From positions 1-26,437 of the IMG/VR virus record IMGVR_UViG_3300046007_005147: a stretch of DNA of 26,437 nucleotides. One strand, 5' to 3'. Under the pieces are notes generated by a model. That model ran no database searches. It was not told the origin of the DNA and was given only the letters and a program-made list of their open reading frames with translations. Both the position numbers and the translations under genes were made by a program. The first letter of the stretch is position 1. Each line of letters begins with the position of its first letter. Positions 4,053-24,712 of this stretch are shown piece after piece. Source of the DNA: a virus.

Positions 4053-4060
4053 TATTTATC
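4053..4060 (-). promoter_or_regulatory. Possible late promoter box upstream of gp19
   Basis: The minus strand reads GATAAATA, one mismatch from the T4 late promoter TATAAATA. It lies 25 bases before the gp19 ATG and overlaps the gp18 stop codon. The position is right for a separate tube transcript, which would make sense because tube and sheath are needed in very large amounts. The mismatch at the first T lowers confidence. Confidence 0.45.
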
Positions 4061-6359
4061 AGAATTGTCCGACGACTTCAGAGAATGCAACACCTGTTCT
4101 AACAGCAACAAAGTTCAACTGAATGAAATTGATGGAACGAGCAGGTTTAATGTAGATGTCACCTACAAATTCGTTACGATCAATCACTTCAGGTGTGTTG
4201 TTTGTTTCGTCACAGACAACCAAGAAATCAGTGATACCTCTACGACCCTGAACATCTGCCAAATAAGGTGTTATCAAGTTTTTGAATTGTGAACGAGTGA
4301 ATACATCGTTGAACTCAAACAAAGTGCTTCTTGCAGAGCGAGAAATTGCCTTTTCTAGAACAATAAACAATCTTCTCACGTTAATTCTGTCAAACGCAGA
4401 AGATTTTCCTAGAAGAGTCTTGTCACCATACAATAGTGTGCCTTGACCTGGGAATGTCACGACAGGGTTTACACCATTTTTGTATAGCGTGTCACGATCT
4501 GCTTTAGATGGGTTGTATGCAAGTTTGACGAGATTTTTAATTTGACCTCTGTTCAATCCTGCAGGTGACCACCACGGATCATTCGTAATATCAGTTCTTG
4601 CACATAGACCTGCAATGTCACCGTTCAAAGGAACCCAACGATACAAATCGTTATAGCGATCATACATGTATTTGTAACCTGAATCCAATACAGCGTATGA
4701 TGTTGAACGGAGGTTATTTCTTGTTGTAACAATCGCATCAGCGGCTTCGCTTCCTGTTTTGCCGATAACATCTGACTTTGGCGGAGAAACGAAAACAACA
4801 CAATCTTTTCTGACTTCAGCTAAATTGTCGATTAGATAATTTGCTAGTTGACCTGAGTTGTCAATCGTCTTACCAGTCAAGATCAATGAAATGTCAACAT
4901 CTTCTGGTGACAAGAATTGATCATATGATCTAGCAAGATTGGTCAAACTGATTGTAGATTCATCTGCGCCGTCTCTGCCCATTACGAAGTTATAACTCGC
5001 AACGTCAACAGTTGTTGATCTCAATTGTGAAGCTGTATCTGATGCAGCGCCTGACAAATCATTGATTGCATATACATATGCAGAATTTTCATTTATGATG
5101 TCTTTATAGTAGTTTGCAGCACCATCAATTGTCTTTGAATCTGTCGCACGAGAAATTCCGCTGTAAACTTCAAGGATGGTTCCAGGAACACCTGAGACCT
5201 TACCCATTTCGTCAACAACAACCACATGCATTTCATCAGCGTTAACTGCTGTATTTCCGAAATTCAATTGGTATTCGGACTTAGCAGGCGCGGTGTCAAA
5301 TGTATTATAGAATTCCCAGAAACGATTTAGTGTGGTATTGATGGTTACGTTTGAAATTTGCTTGACAGGTTCATCAAATGTCATAGTAAATGTAGCAACT
5401 GCGTTAGTGGTGTTACCAGAAACACTCGGTGAAGATAGTGACGCAATTTTCAATTTCTGCGTTCCTACTTCAACTCTATCTGTCAAGTTCAATGAATTGT
5501 AAAGTGACCATACGGTTGTGTTCGCGTCTGTATTAGAAGAAGCAAAATCAGTTGATGCTACTGTAACAGTAACTGTAGCATTTGTGCTATTTACAGGAGC
5601 AGTCACTACAGTAGATTTTGTAGTTGTTCCGTTAGAAACTGCATAAGTGCTATTTGAAATGTCGATTGCGGATGTGTATCCGACCGCATCAGCACAGACA
5701 GAAATTCTCAAACTGTTACCGATTTCACCTGGGAATCTTGCAACAAAATGCACATCAGTGTCGTATGATGATATATCTTTTGCGTCAAAATCTTCACGGT
5801 TTTTGACGATTTGACCTGATAGGTTTGCAACAGAACCGCTGTTTGCAATTGCAGTGAAAGCAGTGTCGCTTGCAAGTTGGATTGTTCCGCCTGTTGAGCC
5901 CAAAACTGCTGCAGAGTTTGAAGCTAGCACGAATACTGTGCTGTTAACTACGTTAACGACTCTGGTGCCCGCTGCTATCGAGTTATTAGTAGACGCAACA
6001 ACAACCATGCCATTAGTAATGCCTGTGGTGCTAGCAACTGTTACGTTTGCTTGGTTTAAAGAAACTGTTGCAGAAGTTGCAATAGGTGATGTGCCTGTTG
6101 TGTTTGCAGCTCTAGAAACATGCAAGCGATTTCCGTAGCTCAAAAAGCTAGCAGCAGTCAACCATGTTTCTGCATTTAAATTTGTAGGTTTACCGAAACG
6201 ACTTGCTAGAGAGTTTTCGTTGTCTATCAACACTCTCTGTTCTACAGGTCCCCAACGAAAGACACCTGCAATAGCGCCATCTGTCGTTGACACCGCAGGA
6301 ACAATAGTAGTTAAGTCAACTTCACTAACATTGATGCCCGCACTTATTTGGAATGACAT
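4059..6359 (-). CDS. 18: Contractile tail sheath protein gp18
   Basis: The sheath subunit that contracts around the tail tube during infection. The N-terminus (SFQISAGINVSEVDLTT) and the C-terminal domain (VFTRSQFKNLITPYLADVQG, then FVGDIYIKPARSINFIQLNF) are classical for T4-type sheaths. I chose the ATG at 6359 over the in-frame ATG at 6377 because AAAGGAG sits about 7 bases before it and the MSFQ..GINVSEVDL start is typical. That gives 766 residues, about 100 longer than T4 gp18 (659). The excess is in two Thr/Ser/Val/Asn-rich stretches near residues 90-180 and 235-350, probably surface domains. It is preceded by an exact TATAAATA late box. Confidence 0.95.
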   Translation of the reverse strand: MSFQISAGINVSEVDLTTIVPAVSTTDGAIAGVFRWGPVEQRVLIDNENSLASRFGKPTNLNAETWLTAASFLSYGNRLHVSRAANTTGTSPIATSATVSLNQANVTVASTTGITNGMVVVASTNNSIAAGTRVVNVVNSTVFVLASNSAAVLGSTGGTIQLASDTAFTAIANSGSVANLSGQIVKNREDFDAKDISSYDTDVHFVARFPGEIGNSLRISVCADAVGYTSAIDISNSTYAVSNGTTTKSTVVTAPVNSTNATVTVTVASTDFASSNTDANTTVWSLYNSLNLTDRVEVGTQKLKIASLSSPSVSGNTTNAVATFTMTFDEPVKQISNVTINTTLNRFWEFYNTFDTAPAKSEYQLNFGNTAVNADEMHVVVVDEMGKVSGVPGTILEVYSGISRATDSKTIDGAANYYKDIINENSAYVYAINDLSGAASDTASQLRSTTVDVASYNFVMGRDGADESTISLTNLARSYDQFLSPEDVDISLILTGKTIDNSGQLANYLIDNLAEVRKDCVVFVSPPKSDVIGKTGSEAADAIVTTRNNLRSTSYAVLDSGYKYMYDRYNDLYRWVPLNGDIAGLCARTDITNDPWWSPAGLNRGQIKNLVKLAYNPSKADRDTLYKNGVNPVVTFPGQGTLLYGDKTLLGKSSAFDRINVRRLFIVLEKAISRSARSTLFEFNDVFTRSQFKNLITPYLADVQGRRGITDFLVVCDETNNTPEVIDRNEFVGDIYIKPARSINFIQLNFVAVRTGVAFSEVVGQF

Positions 6360-6401
6360 AGGATTCTCCTTTTTCAAAGGTTTATTATAAGATATTCTCT
6401 T

Positions 6402-8491: not shown

Positions 8492-9334
8492 TTATTCAGA
8501 TAGAATTATGCCGGCGATGTCTGTGACAAACCCGTAATCATCATCTGCCTCTATTAGATTTCTGTCGATAGTTAGTGAAGAATTAGTTGTAGGATTTCCG
8601 TTAGCGTCAAGCCCCGGAGCAACAGTAACACGATCATTAGGAGTGCTGTTACCAACAATGCTTCCAAGATCCGTATCACCGCTTTCTGCAATGTAGAAAT
8701 TGGTGTTGGAAAATTTGATAATATTCGATTTTTTAACAGGCCCATAGATGTATCCTTTCAATGTGAAATCAAGAGTCCAAATTAAGGCTCTTCTTTCTTT
8801 GAAGTTGCCATCATATGTATCTTCAATCTGTATGTTATTTAACACAACAGGAATATCCATATTCACACTCATTTCAGGAATCAATGCGACCGTGGATGTC
8901 CAATCAGGAGTGAAGAACGGCAGAATTTGCTCTATAATTTTTGTTCCGTCTTCTGCATTTTTTACGTAAACGTATAACTTAAAATTGAAATTATATGGAA
9001 CAGGATTATATTGATACTTCATTTTGTTGGGATTGCTCGGATCCTTCACGGCAATCCTGCCGAGAGTATTCAATTTCCGTGTGCTATCGTATGTGACACC
9101 TTCCATGACAAATGACATGCGAGGAAGGATAACTGCTGCTTCACGTTGAATTTCAGGATCGTTTTCAAGACGAGTCAACATCTTTTCTTTTGCGGCGTAT
9201 GCAAGAGGAACCTTCAATAGGTGAGTTGTTTGACCTGCTGAGTTTGTGCGAGTGATATGAACGTCATTGAATAGCGTCCCGAAAAGGATCACATATTTTC
9301 GCATTGTGCTGAAATAAAAAGTATGCCCGAACAT
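8492..9334 (-). CDS. 15: Tail completion / sheath stabiliser protein gp15
   Basis: A 280-residue protein that caps the tail and joins it to the neck (T4 gp15, 272 residues). The N-terminal MFGHTFYFSTMRKYVILFG followed by LFNDVHITR matches the T4 pattern of Phe-Gly, an aromatic stretch and L-F-x-x-x-x-I-x-R. Other typical parts are VPLAYAAKEKML (about 47-58), the QYNPVPYNFNFKLYVYVKN strand region, EQILPFFTPDW, and RRALIWTLDFTLKGYIYGP near residue 185. The start overlaps the gp14 stop as TAATG. Confidence 0.94.
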   Translation of the reverse strand: MFGHTFYFSTMRKYVILFGTLFNDVHITRTNSAGQTTHLLKVPLAYAAKEKMLTRLENDPEIQREAAVILPRMSFVMEGVTYDSTRKLNTLGRIAVKDPSNPNKMKYQYNPVPYNFNFKLYVYVKNAEDGTKIIEQILPFFTPDWTSTVALIPEMSVNMDIPVVLNNIQIEDTYDGNFKERRALIWTLDFTLKGYIYGPVKKSNIIKFSNTNFYIAESGDTDLGSIVGNSTPNDRVTVAPGLDANGNPTTNSSLTIDRNLIEADDDYGFVTDIAGIILSE

Positions 9335-10059
9335 TAGTAAACTCCATTTTCCGAGAACGGATCACGTTCACTGAAGTCGAGGAATTGCGATGCCTCATTT
9401 TCGATGAAATCATTGTCTGCATTAGGATCTATAGTGTTCATGTTGAATGTTTCCATGACTATGTAATCCCCATCCTCAGTCGCAAGCATGAAATTGTCTT
9501 CGGTGAGAACACCGTAATCATAAATGTTGAGAGACAATTTGTCTTGAATGTCATCAATTTCGGGAATGCCTGTATTGAACTGTTCGCCTGAATATTCGAA
9601 CAATTCACAAGTCAAATCAAACATTTGCAATGCACCTAGCGGATAATAGATAGGTTTGTTGTCAACATACTTAATTTGGAAAATTTTTCTGTTCAACGGG
9701 AAGTAAATGCAATCACCTTCACGAGGACGAATGAAATCTCTAGCGATACCAATCTCATCTTCAAAGACACGCTTTGCAATCGTTAATGTTACTTGATCAC
9801 GAATTTCTAAACCGAATTTAGACATGAAACTGCCGTCACCGCCGAAACCGTCAACGTTTTTGATATACAATTCAACAAGAATTGCTTCGTCATATGATGA
9901 GTTGTCGTCCGTCCCGTATACTTCGTCTTTATTGTTCAAAGTTCTAGGAAGATAGAACATATCCTCACCGTAGATTTTAATTGACTCAATAATTAAACTC
10001 TCTAGCAGAAGTTGCTCTTGAGAGTTTTGAAAATTATTGAAATAAAAATTCGTGGCCAT
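9334..10059 (-). CDS. 14: Neck protein gp14
   Basis: A 241-residue head-completion (neck) protein. The N-terminus NFYFNNFQNSQEQLLLESLI (about residues 3-22) followed by IKIYGEDMFYLPRT is characteristic of T4-type gp14. The middle, DFIRPREGDCIYFPLNRKIF (about 111-130), and the following YYPLGALQMFDLTCELFEYS are also family-typical. With gp13 it forms the collar ring that seals the packaged head and receives the tail. The C-terminus is acidic and ends FSERDPFSENGVY. It sits 6 bases after gp13 and overlaps gp15 by one base. Confidence 0.94.
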   Translation of the reverse strand: MATNFYFNNFQNSQEQLLLESLIIESIKIYGEDMFYLPRTLNNKDEVYGTDDNSSYDEAILVELYIKNVDGFGGDGSFMSKFGLEIRDQVTLTIAKRVFEDEIGIARDFIRPREGDCIYFPLNRKIFQIKYVDNKPIYYPLGALQMFDLTCELFEYSGEQFNTGIPEIDDIQDKLSLNIYDYGVLTEDNFMLATEDGDYIVMETFNMNTIDPNADNDFIENEASQFLDFSERDPFSENGVY

Positions 10060-10065
10060 TGATCA

Positions 10066-10806
10066 TTATCCAATCATATCGGTCACAGGTAAACTGTAAC
10101 TAGAAATCATCTCTTTTTCTAGTTGATTTATTTCTTCGATAGCTTCGTTGTAAATTTGTTGGCCGTTGAACGTAATACCACCAGGCATTTGCATACCTTG
10201 ATATTTTTTCAAGTTGTTGCCCCATTGACGTTTGATCAACGCTGTCGAATATTGTAGCAACCAGCGGTCCGCCCATGCATCTGTCCAAACAGCGGGGTCT
10301 ATGACTTCATATGCTTCGACAATAATATATTCGCCGACCGACACTAGATCCCAATCCATGTCGATATGCAATCTGTTTCTGTGGCGATTATAACGGATTG
10401 GTTTTTTACCAACGAGCAATTCTTCGATCAATTGGATGTGCTGCATTGCCATGAAATAAGGAACCAATGACACACTAGTCAAAGTGTATAGGTCATTTAA
10501 CGCAATCTGATAACGAATGTTGAATATGTTATTGACGTTCAAAGATGCGCCGACATTGAAAATATTTACTACGCCGATGATGTTTTCAGGCATAGTGATG
10601 TATTTGTTGTTTTTGTCAGTTTGAGTTACTTGATACTTATAGTAAATCTTTTCGGTACCATCAAAGTGATAATCCCAATAATAGCGCAATGCTTCGTCAA
10701 TACGATCATCAACTTGATCGTCATCCACGTTAATCTCAATAACGGGAGCACCCAATCGGCGCAAGCAATTTTGTTTGAAAGTTTCTCTTGATGATGGGAC
10801 TGCCAT
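10066..10806 (-). CDS. 13: Neck protein gp13
   Basis: A 246-residue neck protein that completes the head after packaging (T4 gp13 is longer, 309). It opens with SRETFKQNCLRRLGAPVIEI and DDDQVDDRIDEALRYYWDYH (about residues 6-25 and 28-47), the most conserved block of this family. A later block is DAWADRWLLQYSTALIKRQWG (about 175-195). It is the first gene of the neck/packaging/tail run. Its ribosome site GGAGA lies 8 bases before ATG and falls inside an inverted repeat that also contains a near-consensus late promoter, so its expression may be timed (see the regulatory entry). Confidence 0.93.
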   Translation of the reverse strand: MAVPSSRETFKQNCLRRLGAPVIEINVDDDQVDDRIDEALRYYWDYHFDGTEKIYYKYQVTQTDKNNKYITMPENIIGVVNIFNVGASLNVNNIFNIRYQIALNDLYTLTSVSLVPYFMAMQHIQLIEELLVGKKPIRYNRHRNRLHIDMDWDLVSVGEYIIVEAYEVIDPAVWTDAWADRWLLQYSTALIKRQWGNNLKKYQGMQMPGGITFNGQQIYNEAIEEINQLEKEMISSYSLPVTDMIG

Positions 10807-13692: not shown

Positions 13693-14403
13693 TCAATCAG
13701 AAGTTTTAAATTCGTATGTGTTGTTATTTATAGGTTTTATGCCTGTTAATATCTCTGTCAATGCACCGGTTTTATTGTCATGAGTGAATTGAATGGTAGG
13801 ATCACACCATATATCCAATCCCGCTTTTTTAGCGTTGTTGCAGAAAACGTAATCCTCTCCCCAGAAATCACCGTCAATAATTTCAGTGTTAAAGAACGCA
13901 TAACCTTCCTCTACATTCATGTCTACGTCATATCCGTAATACTTCAAATGCTGTAATGATTCTTGCATCTTCAATAACGCAACTTTCGAGATCATCAAAA
14001 ACCCAGCAGGGACAGCCAACATTTTTAAAAGTTTACCTTCAGTTATTATACTGTTGTCAGGATTTGTGTCTGGCCTAAAAATAAATCTTTTTTCTGTTTT
14101 ATTATTTCTGACAGGATAAACACCCGCAATAATATCAGTATCATATTGTAAAAACTTCATAGGTGCGTTGGGATCCCATCCCATGTCACTGTCTATGCAT
14201 AATAGATGTGTGCAATCAGATTTCATGAATGTGTGAACAATCTGATTTCTTTCTTTGGCAAGTATCGAACCTGTAGTGGGCAACAATACTATAGTTTGTA
14301 TACCCGCATGATCAAGTAAATATAAACTTTGAATTAATGACAATGTGAACGTGTTGTCTACTTTTCCGCCATGACAAGGTGAAGCGATCATAAGTTTTTT
14401 CAT
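13693..14403 (-). CDS. GT-A type glycosyltransferase inside the fibre cluster
   Basis: A 236-residue protein with a nucleotide-sugar-binding GT-A plan. It has the N-terminal KKLMIASPCHGGKV, then ERNQIVHTFMKSDCTHLLCI leading to the metal-binding DSD (residues 71-73, DSDMGWDP), and IIAGVYPVRNN (91-101). VPAGFLMISK is at about 131-140. WGEDYVFCNNAKKAG (181-195) holds the usual catalytic-region acidic pair. Such enzymes add a sugar to protein, lipid or DNA; the acceptor cannot be read from sequence. Lying between propeller fibres and another fibre, it could glycosylate fibre proteins or alter the host surface. The C-terminal ITH/FTHDNKTG is typical. There is no membrane segment. Confidence 0.85.
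   Translation of the reverse strand: MKKLMIASPCHGGKVDNTFTLSLIQSLYLLDHAGIQTIVLLPTTGSILAKERNQIVHTFMKSDCTHLLCIDSDMGWDPNAPMKFLQYDTDIIAGVYPVRNNKTEKRFIFRPDTNPDNSIITEGKLLKMLAVPAGFLMISKVALLKMQESLQHLKYYGYDVDMNVEEGYAFFNTEIIDGDFWGEDYVFCNNAKKAGLDIWCDPTIQFTHDNKTGALTEILTGIKPINNNTYEFKTSD
13725..13732 (-). promoter_or_regulatory. T4-type late promoter at the 3' end of the glycosyltransferase gene
   Basis: An exact TATAAATA on the minus strand inside the last codons of the glycosyltransferase gene, 138 bases upstream of the GC-rich fibre ATG and about 100 bases upstream of the leader frame. Its position suggests separate late transcription of the fibre, its small partner and perhaps the lysis genes. Confidence 0.7.
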
Positions 14404-14423: not shown

Positions 14424-15731
14424 TTATGTTTTAATATATATCCGGACATTTTTTCCGTAGCCGTTGTCGTAAGGAGAAAACTCACCATCGAATGGCGGAG
14501 TTTTAAAATGTGTGGTTGTGTTGTATGAGATAGTGTCTGGCAATTGTGTGTATGATTGAATAGCCCCGAGGCTGACGGTGTTGTTTCCGACAGTCACAAA
14601 AACATCGTTGCCGTATGCTATGCCATTAAAAATATAAGTAAATGATGAGCTGTCATCTATAGTCATATTCCTCCAGGAAACACCATTAGTTGATGTCTGG
14701 ATTGTCCCGTTGGTAATGAGGCCGGGTCCACCTGATGCGATAAAAACACCATCGCCATATGTTACAGCGTTTAAATCCATGTATATATCTCTTGCCAGTC
14801 TTTTATGCCAGACTATACCATCAGTTGATGTTTGAATAGTACCCGCTTCACCAACTGCGACAAAAACGCCATTGCCGTATGCTACTGCAAAATTTGATCT
14901 AGTGTTACTGGCACCCGTTACTTCAGACCATGTAATTCCGTTGGTGGATGTTGCGATACCGCCTGCTGTTATTCCTGCAAAAAGTCCTTCAGTTACTGCG
15001 ACAAAAACACCGTTGCCGTATGCTACGCCTCTATGGATAATCGAAGAAGAAAAAACACCGGTTCTGTTCGTCCATGTAGTGCCGTTAGTGGATGATTGTA
15101 TAGACCCTGCACTGCCCACGGAAACAAAAACTCCGTTGCCGTATGCGACGCCATATTGTGTTTGCGTGTTAGCAGTAGTTCTATTCGTCCATGTGATTCC
15201 GTCAGTGGATGATGTGATACTACCCGAAGACCCGACAGTCACAAAAACACCATTGCCGTATGCGACGGCATTTTGATTACTGCTGTTTGCGCGGGTTCTA
15301 TTCGTCCATGTAGTGCCGTTAGTGGATGATTGTATAGACCCTGCGAGGCCCACGGAAACAAAAACACCATTGCCGTATGCTACAGCAAATTGACCATTGT
15401 TGTTAGCAATTGTTCTATTCGTCCAGGTTACATTTTTTACATCTTTATATGGATTCAGATTCAACAATGCACCTAGTTCGGGATAATTTGATATTAAGAT
15501 GGCGTTGTTTGTTACTTCTAGATACCCACTAGGAGTGCTTGGCTCATATGAAATTCTATATGAGCCAGTGGGATCATCGCAAATAAGTCCCTTTCTTAAT
15601 ACATCGTCAATTCGGGAATCTGAAAACGCTTCTTGTGCGCCGTTTAATAGAGTTATTTCATTGTTATCATAAACAATTTTATTATTTCCTGTAGAGTCAA
15701 AAAAAATATTTGCTACTTGAAGTGTGCTCAT
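14424..15731 (-). CDS. Seven-bladed beta-propeller tail fibre, third of three
   Basis: A 435-residue protein. The N-terminus STLQVANIFFDSTGNNKI (2-19) is a docking-like segment shared with the first propeller gene. A collar-like block follows, ending YLEVTNNAILISNYPELGAL (about 70-89). Residue 103 onwards holds seven repeats of about 40 residues with the core VAYGNGVFVSVG..GSIQSSTNGTTW, each ending in a degenerate Asp-box (S-S-T-D/N-G-x-T-W). The seven blades predict one closed propeller. The C-terminus KTPPFDGEFSPYD..KNVRIYIKT resembles the end of tail-collar domains. Positions just after WTNRT (for example IANNNGQ, RANSSNQ, TANTQTQ) differ from blade to blade and may form the binding face. 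It overlaps the preceding gene by ATGA. It is likely a receptor-binding protein; the ligand is unknown. Confidence 0.85.
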   Translation of the reverse strand: MSTLQVANIFFDSTGNNKIVYDNNEITLLNGAQEAFSDSRIDDVLRKGLICDDPTGSYRISYEPSTPSGYLEVTNNAILISNYPELGALLNLNPYKDVKNVTWTNRTIANNNGQFAVAYGNGVFVSVGLAGSIQSSTNGTTWTNRTRANSSNQNAVAYGNGVFVTVGSSGSITSSTDGITWTNRTTANTQTQYGVAYGNGVFVSVGSAGSIQSSTNGTTWTNRTGVFSSSIIHRGVAYGNGVFVAVTEGLFAGITAGGIATSTNGITWSEVTGASNTRSNFAVAYGNGVFVAVGEAGTIQTSTDGIVWHKRLARDIYMDLNAVTYGDGVFIASGGPGLITNGTIQTSTNGVSWRNMTIDDSSSFTYIFNGIAYGNDVFVTVGNNTVSLGAIQSYTQLPDTISYNTTTHFKTPPFDGEFSPYDNGYGKNVRIYIKT

Positions 15732-17880
15732 TTGTATCTCACATATGCTGTTAAATCCAAGCCGACATCAACGGCAGGGATGTAAAATAAACCTTCGTTA
15801 TAAGATTCTATGATTCCTAAAGAATCCACAGACACGAAAACACCATTGCCGTATGCTATTCCAGAACGTGAACTATTATTAGCACTAATCATATTCGTCC
15901 ATGTGATGCCGTCAGTGGATGATGTGATACTGCCCGCAGCCCCGACAGTTACGAAAACACCATTGCCGTATGCTACGCCATTTTGAGCATTGGTGTTTGC
16001 GCGGGTTCTATTCGTCCATGTAGTGCCGTTGGTGGATGTTTGAATACTGCCCGAACTACCAACTGCGACAAAAACGCCATTGCCGTATGCGACGGCATTT
16101 TGATGAGTGTTGTTTGCGCTGGCTCTGTTCGTCCATGTAGTGCCGTCAGTGGATGATTGAATGGAGCCGTTAAGCCCGACAGATACAAAAACACCATTGC
16201 CGTATGCTACACCGTATTGCTCACTGGTGTTAGCAGTTGTTCTATTCGTCCATGTAGTGCCGTTAGTGGATGATTGTATAGAACCATTCCTACCCACAGA
16301 AACAAAAACGCCATTACCATATGCTACAGCATTTTGCATGTTTGCGTTGGCGGATGTCCTGCTAACCCATGTAATGCCGTTAGTGGATGATTGGATAGTC
16401 ACTGCACCAGCACCAGCCGTGGCTCCTCCGACAACGACAAAAACGCCATTACCGTATGCTACGCCATTTTGAGCATTCGATGCCGCGCTACTACGTTTCA
16501 CCCATGCAATTCCGTCAGTGGATGTTTGGACGGTGTCAGCTGTATCTCCCACAGCAACAAAAACACCATTGCCATATGCAACGCCATTAAGCGAAGTATC
16601 ATTTCCGGCTCTTTGTGTGAAGACCGAAAAATAATTTTCCGTCAAAACGGGTGCTGTGTCAATCGAATGAAAAGACCCTGTCAGTAATGCATTGGTCGGT
16701 GAAGCAATTGACGAATTTAATACAATTAAATCTAGCAAAACACCTTGCGATAAAACATTGTTGACGTAAATCCCTGAATTATTTACGATTGTGTTGTTCG
16801 CAAAAACCATCGAAGAAGAATTTATTTGATTGAAAGTACTGCCTACTTTCACAACAAAACTGTTTGATGCGGCGTTTACGTATATTTTATTATCAGCGCT
16901 TAAGTTTACGTTTGATACAATCAAAGTCATTTACGTTGCTTTCACATATTGTTTTGCGATAGGATTGATTAAATTATACGGCGGGATTACCGTGAATTCT
17001 GTAGTAGGTCTGATAGTTCTTTGAATGAATGCAGGGCTTCCTGCAGAACTACCTCCCACAGAAACAAAAACGCCATTGCCGAATGCTACAGCATTTCTTG
17101 TGAAAGAACCACCATTGAATGAATTGTAACCTCTGTCTCTCCACGTAATGGCATCAGTGGACGATTGAATAATCCCATTATTACCCACCGCAACATAAAC
17201 GCCATTGCCGTATGCTACACCTAATAGTGCGTAGGAATTATTAGCAGAAGTTCTATTCGTCCATGTAGTGCCCGTGGGGGATGTTTGGATAACTGAACTA
17301 TAAGAGTCACCCCCGACAGCAACAAATCCCCCCGAAGAATGATATGTTACAGCACTAAAACCGTTAGTTCCCATGGAGGCGGCGGTGCGGCTTGTCCATG
17401 TAATGCCATCAGTGGACGATTGAATATCATTACTCCCTACAGCCACGAAAGTGCCGGTGCCGTATGCCACACTATCAGTGGCAGAAGTAGAAGCAGAAGT
17501 TCTATTTGTCCATGTAATGCCATCAGTGGATGTTTGAATAGCACCCAACCTACCCGTAACCACAAAAATACCTTCACCGTATGTTACTGCAAAAAGCCAT
17601 GCGCCGGAATTGGTGTTAGCAGAAGTTCTATTCGTCCATGTAATGCCATCAGTGGACGATTGAATAGCTGGGCTACCGACGCTGCCCACAGCAACAAAAA
17701 CACCATTGCCGTATGCCACACCATATAGTAACCCTGTGTTAGCAGAAGTTCTATTCGTCCATGTGATGCCGTCAGTGGATGTTTGAATACTGCCCGAAGG
17801 ACCAACTGCGACAAAAACGCCATTGCCGTATGTTACGGCTCTAGGAGTAAAGTTGTTAGCTGAAGTCACAGTAAACCATC
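14560..17880 (-). repeat. Twenty-one propeller blade repeats across three genes
   Basis: Each blade is about 117-135 bases. A short DNA core, plus-strand GCCATTGCCGTATGCTAC with small changes, recurs in nearly every blade, as does ATTCGTCCATGTAGTGCCG. Three blades at about 15055, 15297 and 16238 share almost the same 45 or more bases. The 7+7+7 count comes from reading the translated proteins by eye. Confidence 0.85.
15728..16930 (-). CDS. Seven-bladed beta-propeller tail fibre, second of three
   Basis: A 400-residue paralogue of its two neighbours. The N-terminus is different in detail (TLIVSNVNLSADNKIYVNAA, 2-21) and followed by a beta-rich stalk. The YP collar block seen in the other two is not recognisable. 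Seven blades start near residue 110; their cores are all variants of VAYGNGVFVxVG and SSTxGxTW. The end FYIPAVDVGLDLTAYVRYK again resembles the last strand of a collar domain. Several blades are nearly identical in DNA sequence to blades of the third propeller gene, so exchange between the genes is likely. It starts at TAAATG right after the first propeller gene and ends in an ATGA overlap with the third. Confidence 0.85.
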   Translation of the reverse strand: MTLIVSNVNLSADNKIYVNAASNSFVVKVGSTFNQINSSSMVFANNTIVNNSGIYVNNVLSQGVLLDLIVLNSSIASPTNALLTGSFHSIDTAPVLTENYFSVFTQRAGNDTSLNGVAYGNGVFVAVGDTADTVQTSTDGIAWVKRSSAASNAQNGVAYGNGVFVVVGGATAGAGAVTIQSSTNGITWVSRTSANANMQNAVAYGNGVFVSVGRNGSIQSSTNGTTWTNRTTANTSEQYGVAYGNGVFVSVGLNGSIQSSTDGTTWTNRASANNTHQNAVAYGNGVFVAVGSSGSIQTSTNGTTWTNRTRANTNAQNGVAYGNGVFVTVGAAGSITSSTDGITWTNMISANNSSRSGIAYGNGVFVSVDSLGIIESYNEGLFYIPAVDVGLDLTAYVRYK

Positions 17881-18241
17881 GTTCAACACCAGTATTAGCG
17901 CCGCCTACGAGTGAGAATAAACTCGGATACGCCGCTTGTGATAATATGACGTTGCATGATACAAATTCGAACGGATTTTCATCAACAATTGTTAAACTCG
18001 ATTGTGCATCATACTTCGTTACAATATCACCTAGTCGATAAGAATTTAAATTATATGGTCCTCCGCTGATAGATGACAATATAGGAAAACTAACATCATT
18101 GCGTGTTAATGTTATTTCTGTAGAATTAGCCGTCAACATAGGTTTACCGGATTGAAAAATAGAAACATTCGATCCGATAATTTGAATTCTATTGTTACCT
18201 GTAGATTCTAAATGTATGTTAGATACTTCTACTGTTGACAT
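16931..18241 (-). CDS. Seven-bladed beta-propeller tail fibre, first of three
   Basis: A 436-residue protein. The docking-like N-terminus STVEVSNIHLESTGNNRI matches the third propeller gene. A collar-like block follows, with VSCNVILSQAAYPSLFSLVG (94-113). The propeller begins at about residue 122 with seven blades (cores AVTYGNGVFVAVG, GVAYGNGVFVAVG and so on, each followed by a degenerate Asp-box such as TSTDGITW). Blades 4 and 5 are the most divergent in this paralogue. The C-terminus TEFTVIPPYNLINPIAKQYV then KAT resembles a collar end. The propeller thus looks inserted into a collar domain. A GGAG ribosome site lies 8 bases from ATG, one base after the previous stop codon. Confidence 0.85.
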   Translation of the reverse strand: MSTVEVSNIHLESTGNNRIQIIGSNVSIFQSGKPMLTANSTEITLTRNDVSFPILSSISGGPYNLNSYRLGDIVTKYDAQSSLTIVDENPFEFVSCNVILSQAAYPSLFSLVGGANTGVERWFTVTSANNFTPRAVTYGNGVFVAVGPSGSIQTSTDGITWTNRTSANTGLLYGVAYGNGVFVAVGSVGSPAIQSSTDGITWTNRTSANTNSGAWLFAVTYGEGIFVVTGRLGAIQTSTDGITWTNRTSASTSATDSVAYGTGTFVAVGSNDIQSSTDGITWTSRTAASMGTNGFSAVTYHSSGGFVAVGGDSYSSVIQTSPTGTTWTNRTSANNSYALLGVAYGNGVYVAVGNNGIIQSSTDAITWRDRGYNSFNGGSFTRNAVAFGNGVFVSVGGSSAGSPAFIQRTIRPTTEFTVIPPYNLINPIAKQYVKAT

Positions 18242-18242
18242 A

Positions 18243-18809
18243 TTATACTCCTATTGCTAACCAATACACTGTGCTTGCGGTTGCGTTAGCAGATCTTAAT
18301 GTCGCAGTTGTGGTCGTCAGCGCTGTAACTGCAGGCAATGTATTACCCACGGTGCTCACACTAGGTGTCAATTGCATGGTATATACTGCAGAAAATGCTG
18401 TAGGGAATGTGACTGATCCTGAACTTGAGTTAACCGATGTGTTACCCCATTGCATCAATAATCCATTAGGTAATCTGCTGTGTCCAGGATTTGCAATTGA
18501 AGAAGTTCCTAATGTTAAAGTATTAGTACTGAGAGTCGCATTCGCAGCAGTGACAGCACCGGTAACTGATAAATTCGCCTGTGCTGCTACGTTTCCGGTG
18601 ACAGTCAACGTGCTTGTCATAGTTGCAGCAGCGTTTACTCTAACACCGGTAGTGTTTGCAATGATCACGTTCATTGTGCTGTTTGCTGCTACAGTAACAG
18701 TGTTTGTCGAATTTATTATAATCGACGGTCCTGAGGTGTTACCGGTTCTAACAGTCAAATTAGTGGAACCGTCTTTCGTGTTTATTGTAGTTGTTGTTAA
18801 GCTTGACAT
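18243..18809 (-). CDS. Short tail fibre with gp53-like C-terminal tip
   Basis: A 188-residue fibre protein. The N-terminal 50 residues or so (TNLTVRTGNTSGPSIIINST) align with the N-terminus of the glycine-rich fibre at 24982-25905 (TSLTISTGNTSAGDIVLNSG), suggesting a shared attachment domain. A beta-repeat stalk follows. The C-terminal 80 residues, GHSRLPNGLLMQWGNTSV then GSVTFPTAFSAVYTMQ and a final YWLAIGV, match the pattern of the gp53-like C-terminal fibre domain (x-LPNGLxxQWG ... FP ... YWxAIG), a receptor-binding tip. The ATG overlaps the giant fibre stop as TAATG, so it may be translated together with that protein and act as its tip or a separate fibre. Confidence 0.85.
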   Translation of the reverse strand: MSSLTTTTINTKDGSTNLTVRTGNTSGPSIIINSTNTVTVAANSTMNVIIANTTGVRVNAAATMTSTLTVTGNVAAQANLSVTGAVTAANATLSTNTLTLGTSSIANPGHSRLPNGLLMQWGNTSVNSSSGSVTFPTAFSAVYTMQLTPSVSTVGNTLPAVTALTTTTATLRSANATASTVYWLAIGV

Positions 18810-21800
18810 TATACGATCACCACTCTTCCACCTTCACTGATTGTTAAATTAAACCCGTCTTGGATGACAACGGGACCTGCAGTTAGCGCATTTTCACCCG
18901 CGTCAATCGTGACATTATTAGATTGTGTATTACTATTTATTCGATATAGATTGTTTCGGCTGTTTGTTTCACCGACAGCTCCCAGATTTCCTTTGTAGTA
19001 TCCGCCGCCGCCACCAATAGAACCCCATGCGGAATTAGCAAAACCTTCAAATCTTACCAATTCACTATTATAACGGATCATACCATTAGCACCCGTAGGT
19101 CTTTGTGTAGTATTACCTACAGGTATGAAAATCGCGTCATTTGCTACTATATGCAAAGCAACACTAGGAGTCGTAGTTCTTACGCCGACACGGTTATTGA
19201 CCGCATCCACGAATAAAGTTCCTGTGTCAAAGTTTGCGTTTGCAGTGACAGTCAAGTTTGCAAGTGTTCCTACTGCAGTTATACCTGTATACTCACCAGA
19301 AATTCTTGCAGTGTTTAAAGTTCCGCTTGTAATGTTTTGTGCGTTTGCATAGAATGAAGCAGGTTGACCATTAAAGTTGGATGCGTTGTTTGACGTTCCG
19401 CTGAAGTTTGTTGCGTTGATTGTCGCAGTAGCAGTTGAATTTATGAATGCTACTGCGATAGAGTTTACAGTCGAATTGACAATACTATTGCCTACAAAGA
19501 GCGTCGAAGCATTCACAATCACATTAGCGCCGACTGCAACAACTGTGGCGTTAACAGTCGAAATGCCAACACGCAGGTCAACAGGTGACAAGTTTGCTAT
19601 ACCTGAGGCATTCGATACACGCACTAACGTAGCAGTTTGTAGAGAGTTGACAGTGCTGTTACCAACAAACAATGCAGAAGTGTTTGCAATCACATTAGCG
19701 CCCACGAACAACCCGCTCGCAAAGTTTACGTTTGCAGCAGTAAAATTCAAATTACCTGATAACGTTCTGGAATCAGTATTCTGAACATAAGAAGCAGCAG
19801 CAGTTCCGCCCAAGAAAGAAGCGTTGTTAGCAGCTATAGTTGCGATGTATGATGCATTTACATGAACGCCTGTAGTGTTCACAGCGAGTCCTGTCCCTGC
19901 GACGACTAGAAGAGAAACATCACCTGATGTTCCGCCACCTGATAATCCGTTTGCCGCGCTGACGCCAGTTATGTCACCTAAAGTTCCTGTGACAAGTAAG
20001 TGTGTCGCATTTGATGATACGACAATGCCGTTTGCACCAGAAACCAATATATCGTCATTAGCATTCGAACTATCGCGGAGACGAATTATCCCTTGATTTA
20101 CTGTTGTGTTAGCTACTGCAAGCAAATCATATGATGCGCTGTCATCTAAAGCCCAGTAGGTCGCAGTTCCATTTGAATGTAATACTTGACCCGCAGTTCC
20201 GAATCCGCCATTTGCAGAAAGACCTGCTCCTAGTATGACGTTTGCGTTAAATGTAGTGTTTCCTGTTCTTGTAAACGCGGCTGTAGTGTTTACGACATTA
20301 ACTGGAATTCGGGCATACGGCAAAGTTCCGGATGTGATGTTGTCAGCATTTGCATAGAATGAAGCAGGTTGACCATTGAAATTTGATGCGTTGTTTGACG
20401 TTCCGGTAAAGTTGGTTGCGTTAATTGTCGCGGTTGCTGTAGAATTTATGAATGCAACCGCGATAGAGTTTACAGTCGCATTGACAGTACTATTACCGAC
20501 CAACAATGCAGTTGCGTTTGCAATAACGTTTGCACCCACAGCAACTGCCGTTGCATTAACTGTAGAAATTCCTATACGCAAATCGAGTGCGGTCAAGTTA
20601 GCAGTTGATGTGCTATTTGAAACTTGAAGCAATGACGCCGTGTGTGTTGCGTTGACTGTCGAGTTCGTATATACTTGAACAGCAGTTGCAGTTAAGTTAG
20701 CAGTTGATGTGCTATTAGAAACTTGAAGCAAACCAGAATTATGTGTAGAATTCACAGTGCTGTTGCCCACAAAAACAGTTGTCGCATTACTGTAAACATT
20801 AGCACCAACATTTATTTGAGTTGTGTTAACGCTTGCAATACCTGCAAAGAAACCTAAAGCAGTCAAGTTAGCAGTTGATGTGCTATTTGAAACTTGCAAC
20901 AACGATGAGGTATGTGAAGCATTGACTGTGCTATTACCGATAAACAACGCAGTCGTGTTTGTAATGACATTCGCACCAACTTTCAGACCTGCAGTGTATG
21001 TTACATTTGCACCTGAAAATTCTAAGTTGCCTGATAGCGTTCTGCTATCAGTATTTGTGACATATGAAGCATTTACATGAACACCAGTCGCATTGACAAC
21101 AACTCCTGTTCCTGCAACAACTGCAAGAGAAACGTCACCTGAAGTTCCGCCGCCGGTCAAACCGTTTCCTGCAGCCACACCATTAATATCACCCGCAGTT
21201 CCGGTGACAAGTAAGTGTGTCGCGTTAGAAGATATGATGATGCCATTAGCGCCTGTGATAAGCACATTGTCATTTGCATCTGAACTATCTCTAAGTCTTA
21301 AGATACCCTCATTTGCTGCTGTATTAGTTACTGCAAGCAAATCATATGTTGTGTTATCATCTACTGCCCAATAGGTCGCGGTCCCATTTGAGTGTAATGT
21401 TTGACCTGCAGTACCGAATCCGCCATTTGCGGAAAGACCTGCTCCTAATATGACGTTTGCGTTGAAAGTTGTATTCGCTGTTCTGGTGAATACAGCGGTT
21501 GTGTTAATAACGTTCACTGGGATTTGTGAATATGGCAAAGTCCCTGTAGTGATATTTGTTGCGTTTGTATAAAACGCGCCGCCTTGACCGTTCAAGTTTG
21601 TGGCGTTATTTGCGGTTCCGGTATAGCTTGTTGCGTTTATTGTTGCTGTAACAGTAGAGTTTGTGAATGCAACAGAACTAGAGTTTATCGTGCTATTGAC
21701 AATATTATTACCTAATACGATACTCGTATTCTGTATTGAAATGCCGTTAGTTGTTCCTATTGAACCTACAGTTATGTTCGCCGTTGCATTGATAGTTGAA

Positions 21801-24664
21801 ACGTTCAATGCTGTAGCATATACGTTAGTTGCTACAACGTTACCTGTAGTTTGCACGGAATCTTTGTTGATATAGCTGTATACAGTCGCATTACCTGTAT
21901 ACATTATAGTACTATTAACTATAGAATTTCCGACTGTAATCGTATTGGCAACTGTTAGATTTTGCGCGACAGCAACATTTCCTGCCATGTTTGCGTTTAT
22001 ACCAACCAAATTCCATCTGAGGGTAGTATTACCTAAATTCTTTGCATCCGTATCAGGAATAATATCGCCTTGGGCTTGGAAAGTGCCTGAGGTTACGAGA
22101 TTTCCTGTGACGTTAAAGTTGCCGTTAACAGTTATTGACGAATTAACATACAAATTACCTGATATATTAGCGCCGCCAGTAATAGTTACATTGTTCGACA
22201 CTTGAACAACACCCGTGAATGTCGCCCCTGATAATAGTGCATAGTTTGTTAGATTGCCTGATAGTTGTGCGTTTGAAACGACGTTTGCAGCTGAGACAGA
22301 CCCCACGAATGATGTGTTGTTCGCACTGCCGCTAAATGTCGTGGATGTTATCGTTCCGTTAACACTGTTATTGCCTATTGAGATGCTTGTATTTTGTATC
22401 GAAACGCCATTAGTTGATCCTATTGAACCTACAGTTATGTTCGCCGTTGCGTTGACATGACCTGTATTGACGTATGTAGAATATACGTTGACAACTGTGG
22501 CGTTTCCAGATAATCTCAAGGTTCCTGCGACCGATAATTTGTCGGTTGGTGTGGTATTGCCGATACCTATATTTCCGTTTGCCCCAACTAACAATGCTGT
22601 TGTCGATGAGTTAGCACCTATAGCGGCAGCTGTAGAATTTATTACAGTATTTACTGTAGTGTTTCCGAGGGCTATTCTACTTGACTCAATTGTTACGTTA
22701 GAACCTAAAGATATTGCAGTGCTATTTAACGTAAAATCTGCAGTTTTAATTTCAGAAGGACTGACATTAACTGATGCGGTTGCGTTTAATATTCTTATCT
22801 GTGTTGCAGTAACAAGTGAATTTACAGTAGCATTACCCACGAATAACGCAGTCGCATTAGCGATCACGTTAGCACCAACTGCGACTACAGTGGCGTTAAC
22901 AGTTGAAATACCTACACGCAGGTCAACAGGCGACAAGTTTGCAGTGCTTGTTGAATTTGACACTTGTAGCAAAGTAGCAGTGTGTGAAGCGTTGACAGTA
23001 GCATTACCCACAAATAACGTAGTCGCATTGGCGATTACATTAGCACCCACAGAAACTTGAGCGGATGTGACAACTGAGTTAACAGTTGTGTTACCGATAA
23101 ACAACGCAGTTGCATTGGCGATTACGTTAGCACCTACTGCGACTACAGTAGAGTTTACAGTTGATGTTCCTATACGAAGGTCAACAGGTGATAAGTTTGC
23201 TATACCTGAGGCATTAGATACTTGCAGTAACGTAGCAGTGTGTGTAGCGTTGACTGTAGTATTACCCACGAATAACGTAGTCGCATTGGCGATTACATTA
23301 GCACCCACCGCGACTATAGTTGCGTTAACAGTTGATATTCCCACACGAAGGTCAACAGGTGACAAGTTTGCTATACCGGAAGCATTCGATACTTGTAGCA
23401 ATGTTGCTGTATGTGAAGCATTAACCGTGCTATTACCCACGAATAACGTAGTAGCGTTCGCAATGACGTTGGCACCTACTGCAACTTGTGTAGAAGTAAT
23501 AATTGAATTGACAGTGCTATTACCCACAGACAATGCTGTCGCATTAGCAACCACATTAGCGCCAACAGAAACTTGTGTCGCAGTAACAACTGAGTTAACA
23601 GTACTATTGCCAACAAACAACGCAGTTGCATTGGCGATTACGTTAGCACCTACTGCAACAACTGTGGCGTTGACAGTTGAAATACCTGCAATTACGCTAA
23701 TAGGACTTACGTTGACAGATGCTGTCGAGTTTGCAACGCGAATTTGCGTGCTAACCACAGATGAATTTACAGTGCTATTACCCACGAGAATTGCTGTTGT
23801 GTTTGCAACAACGTTTGCGCCAACAGCAATTGCTGTAGTGTTCACAGTTGAAATACCGGCTACAATGTCAACAGGACTTACGTTAACGGATGCGGTGGAA
23901 TTAGCAACTCTAATTTGTGTGCTGATAACTGAAGCGTTGACGGTGCTATTTCCGACAAACACAGTAGTCGCATTAGCAACAACGTTAGCACCCACAGAAA
24001 CTTGTGCAGATGTAATGACTGAGTTAACAGTTGTGTTTCCTACAAAAAACGCTGTAGCATTTGCAACTACGTTTGCGCCGACAGAAATCGTAGTACTATT
24101 TACTGTAGAAATACCTACACGCAGGTCAACAGGCGACAAGTTTGCAGTGCTTGTTGAATTTGATACTTGTAGCAATGTTGCTGTATGTGAAGCATTAACC
24201 GTGCTATTACCCACGAATAACGTAGTCGCATTAGCGATCACGTTTGCACCAACTGCAACTGCTGTAGTGTTGACGGTTGAAATGCCCGCAGTAACGCTAA
24301 TAGGAGATACGTTAACGGATGCGGTGGAATTAGCAACTCTAACTTGTGTGCTGATAACTGAAGCGTTGACGGTGCTGTTTCCGACAAGAATTGCTGTTGT
24401 GTTCGCAACAACGTTTGCACCCACAGCTATTGCTGTAGTGTTCACGATTGAAACACCTGTGGTCAATCCGATTGGAGTGATTAATGCGCTGGATGTTGCG
24501 TTTGATACTGTGACGTTTCCTGCAACATTGGCAGAACCCACAACTGAAAGCGCAGCGTCTGGAGAAGCGGTATTGATACCTATTCGATTAGAGTCTCCAT
24601 TTGCAACTAGCAAATTGGTGTTGACAACTAAACCATTCTTGACGACAAAATCTTTATCTGCCAT
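18809..24664 (-). CDS. Giant repetitive tail fibre, 1951 residues
   Basis: A very long Asn/Thr/Val/Ala-rich fibre. The N-terminus (ADKDFVVKNGLVVNTNLLVA, 2-21) is followed by the fibre motif NRIGINTASPDAALSVVGSA. Variants of that motif recur near the middle (IGIGNTTPTDKLSVAG) and near the end (NNRVGVRTTTPSVALHIVA). Residues about 70-615 hold twelve copies of a 22-residue unit, VGANVIANATTLFVGNSTVN and variants; five more occur later. Near 865-885 is TDAKNLGNTTLRWNLVG. Two copies of a module of about 200 residues follow. The last 65 residues (YYKGNLGAVGE.. AGENALTAGP.. GGRVVIV) resemble the end of the fibre at the right window edge. The unit suggests a beta-solenoid or trimeric beta shaft. It has its own late promoter. 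It is presumably the long tail fibre or main adhesin. Confidence 0.88.
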   Translation of the reverse strand: MADKDFVVKNGLVVNTNLLVANGDSNRIGINTASPDAALSVVGSANVAGNVTVSNATSSALITPIGLTTGVSIVNTTAIAVGANVVANTTAILVGNSTVNASVISTQVRVANSTASVNVSPISVTAGISTVNTTAVAVGANVIANATTLFVGNSTVNASHTATLLQVSNSTSTANLSPVDLRVGISTVNSTTISVGANVVANATAFFVGNTTVNSVITSAQVSVGANVVANATTVFVGNSTVNASVISTQIRVANSTASVNVSPVDIVAGISTVNTTAIAVGANVVANTTAILVGNSTVNSSVVSTQIRVANSTASVNVSPISVIAGISTVNATVVAVGANVIANATALFVGNSTVNSVVTATQVSVGANVVANATALSVGNSTVNSIITSTQVAVGANVIANATTLFVGNSTVNASHTATLLQVSNASGIANLSPVDLRVGISTVNATIVAVGANVIANATTLFVGNTTVNATHTATLLQVSNASGIANLSPVDLRIGTSTVNSTVVAVGANVIANATALFIGNTTVNSVVTSAQVSVGANVIANATTLFVGNATVNASHTATLLQVSNSTSTANLSPVDLRVGISTVNATVVAVGANVIANATALFVGNATVNSLVTATQIRILNATASVNVSPSEIKTADFTLNSTAISLGSNVTIESSRIALGNTTVNTVINSTAAAIGANSSTTALLVGANGNIGIGNTTPTDKLSVAGTLRLSGNATVVNVYSTYVNTGHVNATANITVGSIGSTNGVSIQNTSISIGNNSVNGTITSTTFSGSANNTSFVGSVSAANVVSNAQLSGNLTNYALLSGATFTGVVQVSNNVTITGGANISGNLYVNSSITVNGNFNVTGNLVTSGTFQAQGDIIPDTDAKNLGNTTLRWNLVGINANMAGNVAVAQNLTVANTITVGNSIVNSTIMYTGNATVYSYINKDSVQTTGNVVATNVYATALNVSTINATANITVGSIGTTNGISIQNTSIVLGNNIVNSTINSSSVAFTNSTVTATINATSYTGTANNATNLNGQGGAFYTNATNITTGTLPYSQIPVNVINTTAVFTRTANTTFNANVILGAGLSANGGFGTAGQTLHSNGTATYWAVDDNTTYDLLAVTNTAANEGILRLRDSSDANDNVLITGANGIIISSNATHLLVTGTAGDINGVAAGNGLTGGGTSGDVSLAVVAGTGVVVNATGVHVNASYVTNTDSRTLSGNLEFSGANVTYTAGLKVGANVITNTTALFIGNSTVNASHTSSLLQVSNSTSTANLTALGFFAGIASVNTTQINVGANVYSNATTVFVGNSTVNSTHNSGLLQVSNSTSTANLTATAVQVYTNSTVNATHTASLLQVSNSTSTANLTALDLRIGISTVNATAVAVGANVIANATALLVGNSTVNATVNSIAVAFINSTATATINATNFTGTSNNASNFNGQPASFYANADNITSGTLPYARIPVNVVNTTAAFTRTGNTTFNANVILGAGLSANGGFGTAGQVLHSNGTATYWALDDSASYDLLAVANTTVNQGIIRLRDSSNANDDILVSGANGIVVSSNATHLLVTGTLGDITGVSAANGLSGGGTSGDVSLLVVAGTGLAVNTTGVHVNASYIATIAANNASFLGGTAAASYVQNTDSRTLSGNLNFTAANVNFASGLFVGANVIANTSALFVGNSTVNSLQTATLVRVSNASGIANLSPVDLRVGISTVNATVVAVGANVIVNASTLFVGNSIVNSTVNSIAVAFINSTATATINATNFSGTSNNASNFNGQPASFYANAQNITSGTLNTARISGEYTGITAVGTLANLTVTANANFDTGTLFVDAVNNRVGVRTTTPSVALHIVANDAIFIPVGNTTQRPTGANGMIRYNSELVRFEGFANSAWGSIGGGGGYYKGNLGAVGETNSRNNLYRINSNTQSNNVTIDAGENALTAGPVVIQDGFNLTISEGGRVVIV
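19735..21620 (-). repeat. Duplicated 200-residue module inside the giant fibre
   Basis: Two copies, about 21620-20995 and 20405-19735, encode the same order of motifs. These are FNGQPASFY, GTLPYARIPVNVVNTT, NANVILGAGLSANGGFGTAG, HSNGTATYWA, RLRDSSNANDDILVSGANGI, SNATHLLVTGT, GGGTSGDVSL and SRTLSGNL, with modest substitutions. A third, shortened copy of only the first part lies near 19400-19330. The module probably forms a globular or coiled unit along the shaft. Confidence 0.8.
22790..24460 (-). repeat. Tandem 22-residue shaft repeats in the giant fibre
   Basis: Twelve copies of the unit VGANVxANATxLFVGNSTVN are spaced irregularly, separated by spacer types such as SNASGIANLSPVDLRVGIST or SNSTASVNVSPVDIVAGIST. 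DNA copies are close but not identical; for example the stretches near 22916 and 24118 agree over about 50 bases with few changes, and those near 19577, 23183 and 23351 share another block. The repeats are coding and arose by internal duplication. Confidence 0.85.
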
Positions 24665-24701
24665 TACGGTTCCCTTTCCCCTTCTGTGGCTATTTTATTT
24701 T

Positions 24702-24709
24702 TATTTATA
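24702..24709 (-). promoter_or_regulatory. T4-type late promoter upstream of the giant fibre
   Basis: An exact TATAAATA on the minus strand, 38 bases before the giant fibre ATG and 4 bases after the stop codon of the small chaperone-like gene. The predicted leader contains the purine-rich GGGGAAAGGGAACC ribosome site region. Confidence 0.85.
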
Positions 24710-24712
24710 ATA

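Follow-up and report, generated by a model that had tools for sequence, protein, structure and literature searches.

Introduction

Two phage proteins that have already been described come closest to those considered here. In Staphylococcus phage phi11 the receptor-binding protein gp45 (5EFV) carries a tail-tip β-propeller that is believed to bind host glycan (PMC4901313), while in Pseudomonas phage phiKZ the C-terminal domain of gp131 (4GBF) is described as a seven-bladed propeller at the periphery of the myophage baseplate and a proposed receptor binder (PMC4901313). The DNA analysed in the present work, referred to below as the window, is a stretch of 26,437 nucleotides from an IMG/VR virus record (IMGVR_UViG_3300046007_005147) that contains three consecutive repeat-protein genes, here called C, B and A. 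We consider it probable that they encode tail-associated receptor-binding proteins arranged as a multi-slot array, the propellers being cassettes that can be exchanged, a reading in which both presence in the virion and receptor binding are presumed.

The three propeller genes and their repeats

The three open reading frames follow one another, as an initial annotation made from the sequence alone had indicated, and all lie on the minus strand: gene C, in slot 1 (16931..18241, 436 aa), gene B, in slot 2 (15728..16930, 400 aa), and gene A, in slot 3 (14424..15731, 435 aa). C and B abut, and B and A overlap by 4 bp. That annotation had also counted exactly seven VAYGNGVFV-type repeats per gene, and the count stands, there being seven YGNGVFV cores in each of A, B and C (the fifth in gene C is degenerate, reading VTYHSSGGFVAVG). 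Asp-box-like motifs, of the form S-x-[DNT]-G-x-x-W with a tolerance of one position, number six in each protein. The motif seen in the window, S-T-[DN]-G-x-T-W, lies in the right place for a BNR/Asp-box, between strands C and D, and since the canonical SxDxGxTW has one more residue between D and G, “degenerate” was the correct label; the Pfam BNR family matched only 1 of 33 relatives.

Paralogues A and C are 46-49% identical to B (49% for the A-B pair), and pairwise dN/dS between the propellers of the three genes is 0.33-0.35, implying that they evolve as translated proteins. At the DNA level, blades from different genes are as similar to one another as blades within one gene, with cross-gene pairs reaching 90%, which suggests that blades have been mixed between A, B and C in the window phage. 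A one-off assembly artefact was rejected as the origin of the arrangement, because a second IMG/VR contig (3300046009_006029, L001), possibly from the same phage population, is 100% identical to the window across 17.5 kb that include it.

Genomic setting

The window derives from the genome of a T4-like myophage, in which Pfam and PHROG searches place a fibre block beside gp13-gp20. The T4-like genes comprise portal gp20, tail tube gp19, sheath gp18 and terminase gp17 and gp16, together with sheath stabiliser gp15 and neck proteins gp14 and gp13, the last three forming a block of neck and tail completion genes (8492..10806, minus strand) that anchors the locus in the T4-like structural module. 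The terminase is 56% identical to those of Sinorhizobium phages phiN3 and phiM12. As a separate observation, the gp18-like sheath protein (4059-6377) is 772 aa long against 496 for the PHROG profile, the surplus lying between about residues 90 and 510.

Upstream of gp13 the fibre block runs in the order glycine-rich fibre, tail assembly chaperone, 1951-aa repetitive fibre, gp53-like fibre, C, B, A, glycosyltransferase-like gene, another fibre, and then an endolysin with its neighbours. The phage tail-fibre setting that had been proposed for the triplet is thus borne out by the gp53-like fibre, the giant fibre, the chaperone and the adjoining gp13-20 genes. The gp53-like gene (18243..18809, minus strand), upstream in the same gene run, encodes a tail fibre protein with a gp53-like C-terminal domain (Pfam PF21882, E 1.6e-14; PHROG tail fiber). 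The giant gene beyond it (18809..24664, minus strand; 1951 aa) is made of VGANVIANATALFVGNSTVN-type repeats and has a syntenic counterpart of 1198 aa in L082, a contig discussed below. Lengthy reading frames also run antisense to the window gene (547 aa at 23067-24710), in all likelihood a by-product of its repetitive sequence.

The triplet is followed immediately downstream by a gene for a GT-A-like, glycosyltransferase-type protein (13693..14403, minus strand; phrog_1574), of which a syntenic copy in L116 is 62% identical. Such a protein may glycosylate the Ser/Thr/Asn-rich discs, or else a host target. A universal pairing of propeller arrays with a downstream glycosyltransferase-like gene was considered and rejected, as GT-A-like genes lie downstream on the same strand at 9 of 51 testable propeller loci, and rarely upstream.

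Predicted fold

The suggestion that each gene encodes a closed seven-bladed propeller is upheld by AlphaFold models for B and C, and for A by homology to B. Seven four-stranded blades arranged in a closed ring are seen in both models. In B the disc spans residues 98-382 (15785..16639, minus strand) with pLDDT mostly 88-98, its seventh blade being completed by strand 98-107. A strand of this kind, contributed from the N-terminal side to complete the last blade of the ring, would account for there being seven cores and six Asp-boxes. Gene C gives the same fold, its secondary structure and pLDDT placing the propeller body at about residues 121-410 (17012..17881, minus strand); A would share it, its body being placed by homology at about residues 100-396 (14544..15434, minus strand). 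The first 100 or so residues of B and C are mostly of low confidence in the models, so that an attachment role for this part is presumptive.

Searching by structure with VIA-align, B matched virginiamycin B lyase with Z 31.7 over 276 residues and WRAP-T, a 7-bladed designer protein, with Z 30.6, while C reached Z 31.8 over 279 residues, virginiamycin B lyase again being among the best matches; Foldseek ranked Ycf48 top for B. Sequence comparisons were much less informative: B alone found nothing among PDB sequences, a profile search gave weak matches only (Ycf48 among them), and PHROGs offered no named family for A or C. Pfam matches to CRISPR nuclease, adenovirus fibre and similar families were set aside as repeat noise. 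The terms “sialidase-like” and “lectin-like” that had been applied to these proteins find no support beyond the general fold: Ycf48 and seven-bladed discs of a generic kind come closest in structure, and the sequence searches brought up no lectin or sialidase of known structure.

Relatives and repeat counts

A profile built from A, B and C retrieved 358 relatives in viral contigs and 139 in bacterial genomes. Among 106 distinct complete ORFs from the viral contigs, exactly seven first-half repeats are present in 50, and counts of 14, 21, 28 and 35 recur; in the bacterial set (62 complete ORFs) the peaks are at 7 (26 ORFs) and 14 (6 ORFs), it being understood in both cases that edge effects of the profile shift some counts to 6 or 8. 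This clustering at seven and its multiples implies that seven is not a chance number, and it is what would be expected of chains of complete seven-bladed discs. The most extended arrangement noted is in L075 (3970-12337), where three consecutive genes have 35, 7 and 21 repeats, making nine discs in a row if all are complete. Of 33 family members, 26 show repeat-level matches to Pfam DUF6242 (PF19755) and 21 to EPTP (PF03736); few blades are matched, however, A and C fall below the cut-off, and DUF6242 is without a defined function.

When 1002 blades were aligned, variability and insertions were found to concentrate in the B-C loop, the first position of which carries insertions in 81% of blades; the D-A loop is a further site of variable positions, and conservation is seen in the A-B turn and at the Asp-box turn. 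Judging from propeller topology, the two variable loops should share one face of the disc, which is likely to be the ligand-contact surface. One further family member, in Actinomycetia phage DSL-LC01 (L267, 3989-4861), lies among collagen-like proteins and is labelled “photosynthesis system II assembly factor”, likely a mislabel.

Arrays in other phages

The triplet had been thought the unusual feature of this phage, and this proves not to be so. Arrays of two to four single-propeller genes recur, for example in L026, L053, L043, L059, L061 and L033, and many phages carry one such gene. A search for the same triplet near T4-like genes elsewhere, which had been proposed as a check, was successful: a 104-kb T4-like contig (L082/L116) has the order of the window, with giant fibre, gp53-like fibre, three propeller genes, glycosyltransferase-like gene, fibres and gp13-gp17. 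It is 75% identical to the window in gp13 and 50% in gp16, and its slot 1 is 53% identical to the N-terminal module of C (residues 1-45; 18107..18241, minus strand). The three slots have distinct termini in both phages, the pair being too diverged to tell disc replacement from fast divergence. Another contig compared, L079, has no DNA in common with the window.

The closest relative in backbone, L159 (gp13 90%, gp14 88%), lacks the triplet; there the slot-C N-terminus carries a fibre body that is not a propeller, and a single propeller is joined to a glycine-rich fibre. It follows that the triplet is either dispensable or recently gained, and that the adhesin block does not track the backbone. 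Between gp14 and gp15 of L159 (7890-8420) there is also a 176-aa ORF that, by eye, resembles a GIY-YIG homing endonuclease.

Constant ends and replaced propellers

The N-terminal module of slot C is found in about 30 viral contigs, most of them T4-like. It typically lies in the fibre block ahead of gp13, and the body attached to it is in most cases not a propeller. A fuller comparison of ends and discs is possible in a marine four-slot group. Between L026 and L053, N-termini are 84% identical within the same slot (range 71-95%) against 56% across slots, and C-termini 82% (62-94%) against 64%, while for the propellers the corresponding figures are 60% (55-64%) and 58% (48-65%). It would be too strong to say that the propellers have lost all slot memory, since in this pair the true order ranks first of 24, by only 2 identity points. 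Between L149 and L150 the N-termini are 88-91% identical and the propellers 40-47%.

More direct indications of exchange come from individual loci. In contig 3300017701_000344 (L144), slot-1 ends surround about 790 bp whose DNA is 100% identical to the slot-3 propeller of L026, and a second sample, L143, shows the left junction again; both are metagenome assemblies, and so could be chimeras. This difficulty is avoided by a pair of prophages in the chromosome of an isolate, Paludibacterium denitrificans dN18-1, in which the first 180 bases of the gene are 92-98% identical and the gene end 98%, with 38-70% in between. (That chromosome holds four separate family loci, L221, L226, L244 and L245, two of them with near-identical flanks and different discs.) A wider screen gave 14 pairs, from three lineages, whose N-termini are alike and whose propellers differ; in three pairs it was the other way round.

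In L072 and L059 the Phage Tail Collar domain (PF07484) is interrupted by the propeller. In L072 the Collar match scores 21.8 bits (profile positions 5-37) in the full protein and 38.2 bits (5-54) with the flanks joined; more generally, the match ends at profile position 37, 46 or 36 in the full L072 and L059 proteins and at 54, 52 and 50 once the flanks are joined, a gain of 6-16 bits that brings it over the cut-off in L072 and L059. Since the two flanks jointly form the domain, the propeller is in these proteins an insertion replaceable as a unit. In the window the Collar alignments of A (15.6 bits over positions 7-56) and C (12.4 bits) are below cut-off, and no such match was seen for B.

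Discussion

On the reading that we favour, each protein would begin with a slot-specific N-terminal piece, most likely serving for attachment to the virion, followed by a closed seven-bladed propeller and a short C-terminal piece. The propeller would sit inside a Collar-type domain, as it does in the relatives, and be swapped as a unit, with ligand likely to contact one disc face through the variable B-C and D-A loops. Homologous recombination between slots and between phages would exchange or mix discs and blades, altering binding specificity while the attachment ends stay put. Recombination is the presumed cause in the window phage itself, and A, B and C are likewise presumed to be present in the virion. 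Receptor binding, glycan preference and trimer state are suggested by gene location and by analogy with the phi11 and phiKZ precedents (PMC4901313).

Several other explanations need to be weighed. Phage fibres are usually trimers, and A, B and C might assemble into one heterotrimeric fibre tip, making a single adhesin rather than three specificities; the distinct slot termini kept in both the window and L082 would fit such an arrangement. However, the number of slots in related arrays is sometimes two or four rather than three, and single genes of this kind occur in many phages, which argues against an obligate heterotrimer, so that we regard this alternative as unlikely. We think it equally unlikely that the diversity of the discs arose by fast vertical divergence or through a diversity-generating retroelement rather than by cassette exchange. 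The variable positions do concentrate in the B-C and D-A loops, as might then be expected, but the breakpoints fall at propeller edges, one swapped disc is identical in DNA to that of another slot, and same-slot propellers are essentially no closer than cross-slot ones while the termini remain well conserved; moreover, no reverse transcriptase (RVT_1) was found in six records, several of them fragments.

As to function, propellers do occur in structural parts of phage tails, among them the nozzles of T7 and SU10 (PMC10607447), and the discs could be structural or decorative, with no role in receptor binding. This is improbable, since the location in a fibre block, the Collar insertion in relatives and the replacement of discs between conserved flanks all fit host contact better. 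Less probable still, to the point of being very doubtful, is that they are sialidase-like or lyase-like enzymes cutting host surface polysaccharide. The match to virginiamycin B lyase, and the propeller that K1F endosialidase is described as carrying (PMC10607447), might be cited in favour, but sequence identity to the fold matches is only 12-16%, the fold is a generic one common to hundreds of chains, and a Pfam search of the window proteins matched no sialidase or other enzyme family. A sialidase (GH33 or endosialidase) has as its hallmark an arginine triad together with catalytic residues.

An array of receptor-binding proteins with exchangeable discs thus remains our preferred account of the window genes. 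A broader proposition, on which we are nearly evenly divided and lean slightly to the sceptical side, is that they belong to a widespread adhesin system of fixed slots and exchangeable discs, with two to four slots, constant ends, and propellers shuffled by homologous recombination among slots and phages, allowing combinatorial change of host range without retroelement or invertase. The repeats are present in hundreds of environmental phage contigs, where they are frequently misannotated as photosystem assembly factors or as hypothetical proteins. If the discs do bind receptors between conserved ends, host specificity could be read from their sequence, and because the ends are constant, host-range change could be probed in harmless laboratory phages by exchanging one defined module.

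Comparison with known systems

In a literature search whose coverage did not extend to subscription papers, no description of this propeller family was found. The likeness to Ycf48/HCF136 (5ojr, 2xbg), which is also a seven-bladed Asp-box propeller, explains the “photosystem II assembly factor” labels in phage records; unlike the window proteins, however, it is a photosystem II assembly factor, a single gene with about 16% identity and no phage role. phi11 gp45 resembles the model of B in that an N-terminal strand closes the propeller ring, but it has five blades, is encoded by one gene, has other N- and C-terminal domains and forms no tandem array (PMC4901313). phiKZ gp131C is set apart by description, in that neither tandem slots nor a collar split is reported for it in the account cited (PMC4901313). 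With Phage Tail Collar fibres (PF07484) the common feature is the domain formed by the flanks of the L072 and L059 propellers; the difference is that a whole seven-bladed disc is inserted mid-domain, and that the window members fall below the cut-off. Propeller receptor-binding proteins are therefore already known, both five-bladed (phi11) and, as proposed for phiKZ gp131C, seven-bladed, and what is new here is the multi-slot arrays, a collar domain that in relatives is split by the disc, and discs that are exchanged while the ends stay fixed.
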